From Syntrophales bacterium (GTDB lineage Bacteria; Desulfobacterota; Desulfobaccia; Desulfobaccales; 0-14-0-80-60-11), in assembly GCA_028688935.1 (NCBI GenBank), contig JAQTXE010000008.1, forward strand, positions 1 to 32,687: a stretch of 32,687 nt of DNA, given 5' to 3'. The notes beneath the pieces are model-generated. The model made no database searches, was not told where the DNA came from, and saw nothing but the letters and a program-made list of their open reading frames with translations. This document shows positions 7,874 through 27,537 of the stretch, one piece after another; position 1 is the first letter of the stretch; every line of letters begins with the position of its first letter. The translations under genes and the position numbers were made by a program.

Positions 7874-8997
<1,124 letters not shown>

Positions 8998-9061: not shown

Positions 9062-9180
9062 AGAGCAAGTGGCGAAGAATCAATCTTTAAATACGAGATT
9101 CTTCACTTCGCTACGCTCCGTTCAGAATGACACGCAAATGACTTTTTACAACTTTTCTGAATAATTAATAATTTTTCTTA

Positions 9181-9231
9181 CTGCCACTAACTACTGACTA
9201 CTGACCCCTAACCCCTGATCCCTGTCCCCTA
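9181..9231. repeat. Degenerate heptamer array abutting the secDF stop codon
   Basis: ACTAACT ACTGACT ACTGACC CCTAACC CCTGATC CCTGTCC CCTA. The last CTA is the complement of the secDF TAG stop. Confidence 0.85.
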
Positions 9232-15299: not shown

Positions 15300-15524
15300 T
15301 GCCCCTACCTCTCTGCAGAAATTTTGGGCCTGGGGGTAAAACTCAAATATGGGGAAAGATATTCACGGGACCTGAAAATGCAAGCTATCTCAAAACAGTT
15401 TTTCTGTCGTTCCGAGCCGGAGGCTAAAGGACCTGCATTTGAGATTATGGGATTCTTATACCAAGTTCGGTTTCTGCTGCAACAAAATTAACTTGTAAGT
15501 TATTGATAATTTGATATCTTTCTA

Positions 15525-15555
15525 CCGAAAACCGAAAACCGAAAACTGAAAACGG
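15525..15555. repeat. GAAAACC-type heptamer array
   Basis: CCGAAAACCGAAAACCGAAAACTGAAAACGG; reverse complement family of the TTTTCGG array at 8711. Confidence 0.85.
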
Positions 15556-17330: not shown

Positions 17331-17411
17331 TTTTTTCGCTGCTCCCAAGTCGTCTTTTGCGGGTGGAAGTGGAAGCCAAGCTCAATTTGGCCGAGTAGGA
17401 CTCGTTTTTCT

Positions 17412-17442
17412 CTGACCACTGACTACTGGCTACTGATCACTA
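17412..17442. repeat. Degenerate ACTGNNN heptamer array downstream of the uvrD-like gene
   Basis: CTGACC ACTGACT ACTGGCT ACTGATC ACTA. Confidence 0.85.
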
Positions 17443-22468: not shown

Positions 22469-22545
22469 AGTGGCCAGTGATCAGGGGTCAGTGGTCAGCG
22501 AAAATACCAAGCAGTTAACCACTGGCCACCGGCCACTGACCACTA
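22469..22545. repeat. Heptamer-array inverted pair between the cobA-hemD and hemerythrin genes
   Basis: AGTGGCC AGTGATC AGGGGTC AGTGGTC AG ... ACC ACTGGCC ACCGGCC ACTGACC ACTA. Confidence 0.85.
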
Positions 22546-24451: not shown

Positions 24452-25327
24452 TCAAAGATATTTCTTCAAGAAACCATATCTTTTATTATCTTTATAATAA
24501 AAATAGCGAGCTATTTCTGTTTTTGCTTCTATAGGAGATTTATTAACTACGGAAATTATAAAAGATTTTTGTGAATTCAATATTTCATTTTTTTTGCCAG
24601 AGCCTAAAGCTTCAGCTTGTTGAAATAAATCATCTCCTTGTTTAATTTTTCCTTTATCAATGTAAATGGCTCCAAGTAAGTTATATGGATAAAATGATTC
24701 GTCGTACTTTAGAGCATCCCAGGCGCATTTTTCAGCTTTTGGTAAGTTACCATCATCACGTAAGCATGCCCCATGAGCTGTAAGAACAGCTGCCATAAAC
24801 TTTTTGAAATCTTTATGTTGATTGAACCTATCCTGCTGAATATTTTCAATGTTAGTTAATGCCAACCCTTTGTCCACCAAACCAGCTTTTCGATAATATT
24901 TGGCTGCGGTAACAATATGCCATTTATCATCACCAATATTTTTTTCATAATATTTTCCTAATAATTCATAGGCATTTCTTTCCAATATAAAATTAATATC
25001 GTCACCGTTTAGATTAATCCCATCATGGATTTTGAATATAATATCTAGAAATCTGTCCTTTAAATGAAGATTTTTGTATTTTAACTTTTCTTTTAATGAA
25101 ATTGGTAGTTGGTCTATAAATGAATTGTCAAAAAGTACAGAAAATTCGTTGTATTTATATTTACAATTAGGTCTGTTTTCAAAACTAATATAAATGCGTT
25201 CATCATCTATCTTATTAATAATTCCATACTGATGTACTTTTTTGTTAAATATCTTAATCCCACATAATTGATGTAAAATGGACTCGTCATATTTTGCTAA
25301 AGAAAAAATAAGCTTCCATAAATTCAT
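24452..25327 (-). CDS. AT-rich TPR-like protein of unknown function, probably horizontally acquired
   Basis: Long ORF with TPR-like helices (AEKCAWDALKYDESFYPYNLLGAIYIDKGKIKQGDDLFQQAEALG). Visibly AT-rich against GC-rich flanks. Confidence 0.7.
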   Translation of the reverse strand: MNLWKLIFSLAKYDESILHQLCGIKIFNKKVHQYGIINKIDDERIYISFENRPNCKYKYNEFSVLFDNSFIDQLPISLKEKLKYKNLHLKDRFLDIIFKIHDGINLNGDDINFILERNAYELLGKYYEKNIGDDKWHIVTAAKYYRKAGLVDKGLALTNIENIQQDRFNQHKDFKKFMAAVLTAHGACLRDDGNLPKAEKCAWDALKYDESFYPYNLLGAIYIDKGKIKQGDDLFQQAEALGSGKKNEILNSQKSFIISVVNKSPIEAKTEIARYFYYKDNKRYGFLKKYL

Positions 25328-25408: not shown

Positions 25409-25792
25409 TCAACGCTCAACTCCCTCTCCCCCCGGCGGGGGGAGAGGGCCGGGGTGAGGGGGGAGGTCTTCGAGGGTGTCGAAAATTGTATCCATAATCG
25501 CATCCGTCTCCTGCAAGACCTCATGATTCCAAAACCGCAGGACATGATACCCCATTTTATTTAAGTAAGCGGTGCGCCGCGCATCTACCTCTTCATTCTC
25601 TCCATGTTGCCCGCCGTCCAACTCAATGACAACTTTTTTCTCTAGACAGATAAAATCTACGATGAATGGTCCCACCGGGTGTTGCCGCCGGAATTTCCAG
25701 CCGCCGAGCTGGCGATCCCGAAGATGATACCAGAGCCTGCTTTCTGCATCGGTCATGTTCTTCCGCAGGACCCGGGCGAGCTGCGTGGTCAC
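25409..25792 (-). CDS. DUF559 (PD-(D/E)XK/Vsr-like) endonuclease-domain protein whose C-terminus is encoded by a palindromic repeat
   Basis: LARVLRKNMTDAESRLWYHLRDRQLGGWKFRRQHPVGPFIVDFICLEKKVVIELDGGQHGE...RTAYLNKMGYHVLRFWNHEVL is canonical DUF559. Tail PPHPGPLPPPGGEGVER lies in the repeat. Confidence 0.9.
   Translation of the reverse strand: MTTQLARVLRKNMTDAESRLWYHLRDRQLGGWKFRRQHPVGPFIVDFICLEKKVVIELDGGQHGENEEVDARRTAYLNKMGYHVLRFWNHEVLQETDAIMDTIFDTLEDLPPHPGPLPPPGGEGVER
25417..25463. repeat. GC-rich palindromic repeat copy 1 (overlaps the 3' end of the DUF559 gene)
   Basis: CAACTCCCTCTCCCCCCGGCGGGGGGAGAGGGCCGGGGTGAGGGGGG. Confidence 0.9.
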
Positions 25793-25796
25793 TTAC

Positions 25797-25836
25797 GCCC
25801 CCCTCACCCTAGCCCTCTCCCCCGAGGGGAGAGGGG
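25797..25836. repeat. GC-rich palindromic repeat copy 2 (inverted, immediately upstream of the DUF559 start)
   Basis: CGCCCCCCTCACCCTAGCCCTCTCCCCCGAGGGGAGAGGGG; reverse-oriented relative to copy 1. Confidence 0.9.
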
Positions 25837-26010: not shown

Positions 26011-26060
26011 TCAACTCCCTCTCCCCCCGGCGGGGGGAGAAGGTTGGGGTGAGGGGGGCG
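26011..26060. repeat. GC-rich palindromic repeat copy 3 (same orientation as copy 1)
   Basis: TCAACTCCCTCTCCCCCCGGCGGGGGGAGAAGGTTGGGGTGAGGGGGGCG. Confidence 0.9.
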
Positions 26061-26228: not shown

Positions 26229-26261
26229 ATCCCTGACCCCTGTTCCCTAATCCCTATCCCT
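26229..26261. repeat. Degenerate CCCTNNN heptamer array containing the pyrC stop codon
   Basis: Minus strand reads GGGATAG GGATTAG GGAACAG GGGTCAG GGATAAG; the first TAG is the pyrC stop. Confidence 0.85.
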
Positions 26262-27537
26262 CCTCCTCCCAGACCACCTCTCCCCCCACAATAGTCATCA
26301 CGGCTTTGCCTTTCAAGGTCCAGCCGTTAAAGGGGCAGTTCCGGGATTTGGAGGCGAAGGCGCTGGCGTCCACGGTCCACTCCCGGTTTAGATCAATGAG
26401 GGTGATGTCCGCCGGGGCCCCCGCTTTCAGGGTGCCTCCGGGCATGCCCAGGATACCCGCGGGATTGGTGCTGAGAGCGCCGATGGCCTGGCTCAGGTTA
26501 AGGGCGCCGTCGTGCACCAGTTTCAGGGTAAGGCTTAAGGAGGTTTCCAGGCCGATGAGGCCGAAGGCGGCGGCGGTGAATTCCACTTCTTTTTCCAGGG
26601 AGCTGTGGGGCGCGTGGTCGCAGGCCACCGCGTCCAGGGTGCCATCTCTGATGGCTTCTTTAATGGACTTCACGTCCATTTCGGTCCTCAAAGGCGGGTT
26701 AACCTTGGCATGGGTGTTATAGCCCAGGACCGCCTCTTCCGTCAGGGTGAAGTAATGGGGCGCGGTCTCGGCAGTGACGGGCAGGCCCATGGCCTTGGCT
26801 AGGCGAATGATGGCTACGCTGCCCGCGGTGCTGACGTGGGCGATATGGAGCCGCGCGCCGGTGAGGCGGGCCAGGGTCAGGTCCCGGTAGACCATGACCT
26901 CTTCCGCGGCCGCGGGGATGCCTTTCAGGCCCAATTGCAGGGAGACGGCGCCTTCGTGCATGACGCCGTCCGCCGCGAGGTCCAGGTCCTCGCAGTGGGA
27001 GATGACGGGGAGATCGAAGGTGCGGGCGTATTCCAGGGCCCGGCGCATGAGCATGGAGTTGCTCACCGGGCGGCCGTCGTCGGTCACGGCCACCACGCCC
27101 GCGGCCTTGAGATCGCCATATTCGCTGAGGGCCTGCCCCAGGGAGCCCACGGATACGGCTCCCACCGGGTAAACCCGGGCGTGGCCCGCGGCTTTGGCCT
27201 GGTCCAGGATGAGGCGGGTCACCGCGGCGTTGTCGTTCACCGGCTTGGTGTTGGGCATGCAGGCCACCCCGGTGAAGCCTCCCTGGATGGCGGCCCGGGT
27301 GCCGGACTCAATGGTCTCTTTGTATTCCTCCCCCGGTTCCCGGAGATGAACGTGCATGTCCACCAGACCCGGGGTCACCACCAGGTCCGAAGCGGAAATG
27401 ACCCGCCGTCCTTCGGCCGGGATCCGGCCCGGGGGCTCCAGGGCTACGATTTTGCCCCGTTCCACCAGCAGGTCCAGGGGGTCCTCCAGATGTTGGGAGG
27501 GGTCCACCACCAGCCCGCCTTTAATTAACAGGCTCAC
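26254..27537 (-). CDS. pyrC: Dihydroorotase PyrC (GTG start overlapping the pyrB stop)
   Basis: [77 protein letters not shown] overlap with pyrB. Confidence 0.95.

Follow-up and report, generated by a model that had tools for sequence, protein, structure and literature searches.

The stretch of DNA analysed here, further called the window, comprises 32,687 nucleotides of a Syntrophales bacterium contig (JAQTXE010000008.1) and contains a small gene of the DUF559 family accompanied by three copies of one repeat (Table 1). In a Pfam scan the product of this gene matched PF04480 with an E-value of 8e-44 and a score of 148.4 bits, versus the curated cut-off of 20.6. Each of the three repeat copies is composed of a GC-rich hairpin, a short spacer and then a third arm, which mirrors the purine arm of the hairpin. 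Copies 1 and 2 are inverted (92% complementarity over 26 nt), and the cassette has the layout (hairpin–third arm)–DUF559–(third arm–hairpin), with the third arms directed toward the gene at both ends, which is the meaning of "inverted" throughout this text.

Table 1. Features of the DUF559 locus, in positions of the window
Feature	Position	Strand	Remarks
DUF559 (PF04480) single-domain Vsr-like PD-(D/E)XK nuclease gene	25409-25792	-	GTG start, 127 aa; assigned by ORF, Pfam scan and structure model
Triplex-motif copy 1	25422-25463	+	Hairpin 25422-25448, third arm 25452-25463 toward the gene; lies in the ORF, at its 3′ end
C-terminal protein tail PHPGPLPPPGGEGVER	25412-25463	-	About 17 last codons; encoded by copy 1
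Triplex-motif copy 2	25798-25835	-	Hairpin 25813-25835; begins 5 bp before the DUF559 start codon
Triplex-motif copy 3	26017-26058	+	Oriented like copy 1; about 180 bp from copy 2, on its upstream side; one hairpin base changed
pyrC (dihydroorotase)	26254-27534	-	Neighbour; served for presence/absence comparison
Hypothetical protein gene, downstream of DUF559	24452-25327	-	Without Pfam match; context only

A preliminary description of this locus stated that the gene is flanked by opposite-orientation copies of one repeat, one at its 3′ end and the other five bp upstream of its start; orientation and both positions were confirmed, and the listing needed to be completed with the third copy, which was missing from it. 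The repeat was also described as a palindrome. This holds for the hairpin part, whereas the whole is asymmetric and, with its extra third GGGGTGAGGGG arm, constitutes an intrastrand triplex motif. The PHPGPLP-type tails on DUF559 proteins are translated repeats. A second upstream copy resembling copy 3 is located at 172-228 bp in five further loci (L018, L035, L052, L056, and L059). The window contains also dispersed intergenic repeats of a family separate from the triplex motif, AGTAGCCAGTGATCAGTGG (TGACTACTGGCTACT), at 2423-2496, 9172-9230, 17404-17441 and 22469-22544, some of them in inverted pairs, as well as short tandem runs of GTTTTCG type at 8711-8744 and 15524-15553, in inverted orientation and about 6.8 kb apart.

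In the genome from which the window originates, 39 exact hairpins of the form CCCTCTCCCC-n-GGGGAGAGGG are present, while the reversed-pattern control gave 0; among those on the assembled contigs, a single pair lies less than 1 kb apart, and this pair brackets the DUF559 gene. Markov shuffles of the window produced 0-3 weak triplex-like matches. The second, and only other, DUF559 gene of this genome (contig C180) is bracketed as well, by a repeat of a different family, CCCCCCTTTnnnAAAGGGGGG-TTA-GGGGGGATT, that has the same architecture.

Judged by its sequence, the repeat of the window (family A) is the intrastrand triplex motif TM_ECO, one of the TM/PIT elements: it contains a hairpin with GC-rich purine arm, a short second loop and a mirror-related third arm, and it matches the TM_ECO list. 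The same definition (hairpin, short second loop, mirror-related third arm) was used to build the triplex-motif detector applied in this work. TM_ECO is present in 23 copies in E. coli MG1655, with TTA and CCG as second loops (Holder et al., 2015; PMC4666352), and its loci in E. coli are unstable and contain hairpin remnants, for which a "palindrome effect" was described (PMC4666352). In that report physical triplex formation is described for TM_ECO and no associated gene is named, the terms "DUF" and "endonuclease" being absent from its text. The Rfam matches were to microRNAs, all sub-threshold, and were taken as chance.

The structure model of the window protein (pLDDT 82.6) matched first the DUF559 structure 3HRL, then the catalytic domain of homing endonuclease I-Bth0305I (3R3P; TM-score 0.75 by target length, E-value 6e-5) and, lower, Vsr (1VSR/1CW0; probability 1.0). 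I-Bth0305I is the closest solved structure outside DUF559, and sequence comparison agrees with it; the likeness to Vsr is structural only, with no Vsr family match of the window protein in the Pfam scan. The protein is modelled as a Vsr/homing-endonuclease-like nuclease, and the model, together with the PF04480 match, agrees with the earlier placement of DUF559 in the PD-(D/E)XK/Vsr-like group; YcjD of E. coli was listed as a member of the PD-(D/E)XK superfamily already in 2005 (PMC1189080). Residues E57, D59, and H63 do not vary among 59 diverse DUF559 members. The protein is under purifying selection, since dN/dS amounts to 0.05-0.23 between close pairs and to about 0.1 for the window gene compared with its orthologues. 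In Caulobacter, a DUF559 protein (VsrA) is required for DNA-damage response in vivo, in cells devoid of a cytosine methylase (PMC12907096), a role that fits an active nuclease. A defence-system reading was dismissed, as the similarity to DpdF in PADLOC is weak and nothing more was found.

Is the arrangement of the window a property of DUF559 genes in general? Named loci (80) were retrieved through protein peptides alone and represent best matches, not a random sample; they come from Desulfobacterota, Pseudomonadota, Chloroflexota, Nitrospirota, Planctomycetota, cyanobacterial relatives and others. In a repeat-agnostic test, in which the upstream flank was aligned to the reverse complement of the downstream flank, inverted flanking repeats were detected at 58 of 77 DUF559 genes (75%) and at 5 of 537 neighbouring ORFs of the same loci (0.9%; p 2e-58), while about a quarter of the sampled DUF559 genes have no clear inverted flanks in this strict test. 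The enrichment over other genes, suggested as a check in the preliminary description, is therefore present. The density of motifs reaches 8.2/kb within 100 bp of the gene versus 0.03-0.08/kb beyond 500 bp, i.e., it is about 100-fold higher, and at least one motif lies within 260 bp of 125 out of 134 DUF559 genes. The orientation of copies, expected to be non-random relative to the gene, is indeed so: the third arm is directed toward DUF559 in 104 of the 122 nearest copies and away from it in 18 (p 7e-16). A minority of DUF559 genes has outward third arms (L033, L034, L048, L065, L098, L117, L157, and L245). Among 52 DUF559 genes from relatives most have flanks of this kind, belonging to at least three main repeat families, and the bracketed layout is seen also in named isolates. 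By comparison, one weak flank match was obtained in twelve loci coding for long proteins in which a related nuclease domain is no more than a part. Bracketing is close to universal among the single-domain DUF559 genes sampled. The association between DUF559 and the triplex motif, its direction and its specificity are established, in a material that includes many loci from metagenome assemblies and with coarse repeat-family labels. The bracketing is not exclusive to DUF559 genes, as in one genome (G021:C77) two convergent motifs, separated by 426 bp, enclose none. Two particular arrangements were noted, namely a tandem pair of DUF559 genes with family C motifs between them (G001:C111; L052) and a triplex-like motif array, alternating with a period of about 281 bp, downstream of the DUF559 homologue of Neisseria gonorrhoeae (L243), the species of 3HRL.

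The repeat family follows the protein clade. On a tree of 133 proteins, which has few columns and many weak forks, repeat families require 39 changes versus 70.6 for shuffled labels, and 0 of 200 shuffles were as low; the family C clade is well supported, and so is one family B clade, whose members come from several classes and phyla. Genome G004 carries three repeat families. Copy number is related to the presence of the cognate gene as well: the median number of family A copies is 40.5 in genomes with the gene and 0 in those without it (p 1e-6), the corresponding values for family C are 39 and 0 (p 2e-9), and the contrast is retained inside the taxonomic family of the window (p 0.007 for family A and 3e-4 for family C), gene absence being uncertain in incomplete genomes. 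Some genomes contain many copies and yet no detected cognate gene (family C in G009, G016, G027, G044, G083, and G094; family A in G002), and there one has to assume gene loss, cross-mobilisation or another agent. DUF559 genes number 1-4 in most genomes, against tens to about 120 motifs, which implies that the spread of the repeat greatly exceeds that of the gene. No Y1 transposase (Y1_Tnp) was found at E-value ≤1e-12 in genomes G000-G013, which include that of the window and carry from 1 to about 120 family A copies, and RAYT was accordingly rejected as the agent in the repeat-rich genomes of this set.

Coding genes that are uninterrupted in some genomes contain the cassette in others. While it is free-standing in most loci, in three genomes it is located in frame at one linker of the gene coding for DUF1156 DNA methylase. 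Several other genomes have this gene uninterrupted, with no palindrome of the cassette kind at the site, and in G012 only a solo-hairpin scar is present at the same point, with matching flanks on both sides. A scar of this kind recalls the "palindrome effect" described for unstable loci of E. coli (PMC4666352); simple recombination of one palindrome with another could produce it as well. A second insertion is seen in Synechocystis B12, where a DUF559 cassette lies in a gene of the DUF1156 family at a different point, at which the gene of Planktothrix is uninterrupted. In two further loci (L202 and L203) the linker used elsewhere by the cassette holds different palindromic repeats (GGTCGCCC types), translated in frame, and constitutes an insertion hot spot. 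Next to pyrC, G000, G005, and G008 carry the DUF559 gene with its repeats and G004 a truncated form of it, while other genomes have none; this pattern of presence and absence is clear, but repeats are so abundant in the spacer that they obscure the exact junctions, and the site was not retained as a clean empty site. The search for empty sites proposed in the preliminary description thus revealed occupied, uninterrupted and scar states in DUF1156 genes and presence/absence next to pyrC. The claim of a mobile cassette gained comparative support from these DUF1156 genes, and we infer mobilisation itself. No clear target-site duplication is visible at the junctions, where palindromic ends make a duplication hard to tell. 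The DUF559 gene is seldom found on plasmids (44 of 72,556 records) or on phages (3 of 50,697), and carriage by either was rejected. In G008 and G016 there are motif pairs at a fixed spacing of 81 or 115 bp, which are near-identical dispersed elements with third arms outward, opposite to the gene cassette; kinship with the cassette flanks was rejected, the motif alone being in common.

The E. coli gene ycjD belongs to the same family, and its product is 45% identical to that of the window gene. Downstream of ycjD, at a distance of 168 bp, there is a TM_ECO copy, and a partial hairpin is present at the 3′ end of the gene, whereas, unlike in the window, there is no upstream copy; the E. coli cassette looks degraded. 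In Enterobacter (L148) the full facing motif is kept at the 3′ end of DUF559. The ycjD region occurs in 3,365 of 5,426 E. coli genomes, and among 60 sampled E. coli records the mean number of further motif matches is 3.3 with this region and 1.7 without it, a difference confounded by lineage. In the fabI-sapF interval of E. coli (L067), ycjD, together with its triplex motif, alternates with the eefRABCD efflux operon from lineage to lineage (PMC12817139).

The interpretation toward which we lean is that of a compact nuclease-plus-repeat cassette, comparable to REP-RAYT but not homologous to it. The nuclease would act on the triplex repeat and drive its spread via break repair; catalysis and mobilisation we infer. 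DUF559 would be a structure- or sequence-selective nicking or cutting enzyme and its putative substrate the folded triplex motif, or the cruciform of it, both on its own flanks and at dispersed copies. Breaks at or near the motif would be repaired by copying from another motif-bearing locus, a process that would multiply solo and paired motifs and occasionally carry the gene along. A Vsr/homing-type nuclease with host repair would in this way stand in place of the tyrosine transposase in an otherwise REP-RAYT-like system, and the triplex-motif loci of E. coli could be hypervariable because break repair copies motifs. The wider proposition, that DUF559 proteins are dedicated mobilising enzymes of bacterial triplex repeats and form a multi-phylum selfish nuclease-repeat class, independent of RAYTs and relying on cutting of folded DNA and host break repair, is given slightly less than an even chance.

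Some of the data may be read differently. DUF559 might be a host-serving Vsr-like repair nuclease that resolves triplex or cruciform structures or mismatches, with the flanking motifs as binding sites for self-regulation and motifs spreading otherwise. Its Vsr-like fold, the strong purifying selection, motifs that come within a few bp of the start codon and cover the stop codon, the rarity of the gene on plasmids and phages and the ties of Caulobacter VsrA to methylation and DNA damage (PMC12907096) agree with such a role, which we nevertheless consider unlikely, as it explains neither the higher cognate copy number in gene-bearing genomes nor the occupied and uninterrupted states inside coding genes, and regulation alone would need no bracket at both ends. 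The uninterrupted DUF1156 genes, lacking any such palindrome at the site, and the excess of motifs over DUF559 genes in most genomes make it quite improbable that the unit is a homing-endonuclease cassette, i.e., that a selfish DUF559 cuts solo hairpins or motif-bearing alleles and is copied in by homologous repair, dispersed motifs being its targets and remnants, even though I-Bth0305I is the nearest solved structure, cassettes lie in frame in a protein linker and G012 has a solo hairpin at the same point.

Another mobile element (RAYT or other transposase) or replication slippage could have spread the motifs, and DUF559 genes could insert adjacent to them or ride along. Triplex-forming DNA is reported to be unstable by itself (PMC4666352) and some repeat-rich genomes have no detected cognate gene, as such hitchhiking would allow; it is however quite improbable, given that no Y1_Tnp was detected in the repeat-rich genomes among G000-G013, and given neighbours without comparable bracketing and almost none at related nuclease domains in longer proteins, while clade-specific repeat identity and facing orientation would not be expected. 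Finally, the genome of the window is assembled in 384 contigs, which might suggest chance or an assembly artefact in a GC-rich metagenome-assembled contig. The probability of this is negligible: the artefact reading is contradicted by the orthologous loci, as gene and repeats lie beside pyrC also in G005 and G008 and in truncated form in G004, the layout recurs in named isolates and shuffles yield almost none.

The triplex motif and DUF559 are each known separately, and no published report of their pairing was found in the open-access literature, though an earlier one elsewhere is possible. DUF559 is a widespread family without an assigned function, and the pairing joins two orphans, each of which gains a testable role; it suggests an overlooked enzyme-plus-repeat system that spreads triplex repeats. 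Among known systems, the repeat shares with TM_ECO/PIT its inverted pairs, its high copy number and its form, the sequence of the MG1655 copies being CCCTCTCCCTGTGGGAGAGGGCCGGGGTGAGGGC, with hairpin, a loop of TTA or CCG and third arm, like family A. It differs from TM_ECO/PIT as published in that the motif brackets a nuclease gene and goes beyond it with further motif families (B, C, and E), which have the same architecture and are tied to DUF559 clades. Homing endonucleases are encoded in introns or inteins and cleave the empty allele; the DUF559 gene appears to lie in neither, being free-standing in most loci and in frame inside a gene in three.

The preliminary description compared the layout with REP/RAYT units, but a REP-like nature of the repeat itself is not supported. 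REP sequences are defined by a palindrome one end of which carries a tag, GTAG or CGTC (PMC3733652), and no such tag was found in the copies and the 28-bp flanks inspected; as this tag and RAYT association are both missing and a triplex motif is present instead, the repeat is not a strict REP, and its third arm sets it further apart. The parallel drawn with the RAYT layout, with a nuclease replacing the Y1 transposase, was in turn borne out by the bracketing frequency and facing orientation. REP-RAYT, REPtrons and REPINs likewise consist of dispersed palindromic repeats and of a small chromosomal gene bracketed by inverted copies, and repeat-specific enzymes and paired non-autonomous units are common to REP-RAYT/REPINs and the DUF559-triplex unit. 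Of the features that define a REPtron, a gene bracketed by an inverted dispersed repeat is present, and a Y1/HUH gene and the tag were not detected, the enzyme being a PD-(D/E)XK nuclease. The two are not homologous, and the DUF559-triplex unit may be a second system, unrelated to REP-RAYT, that follows the same way of life.
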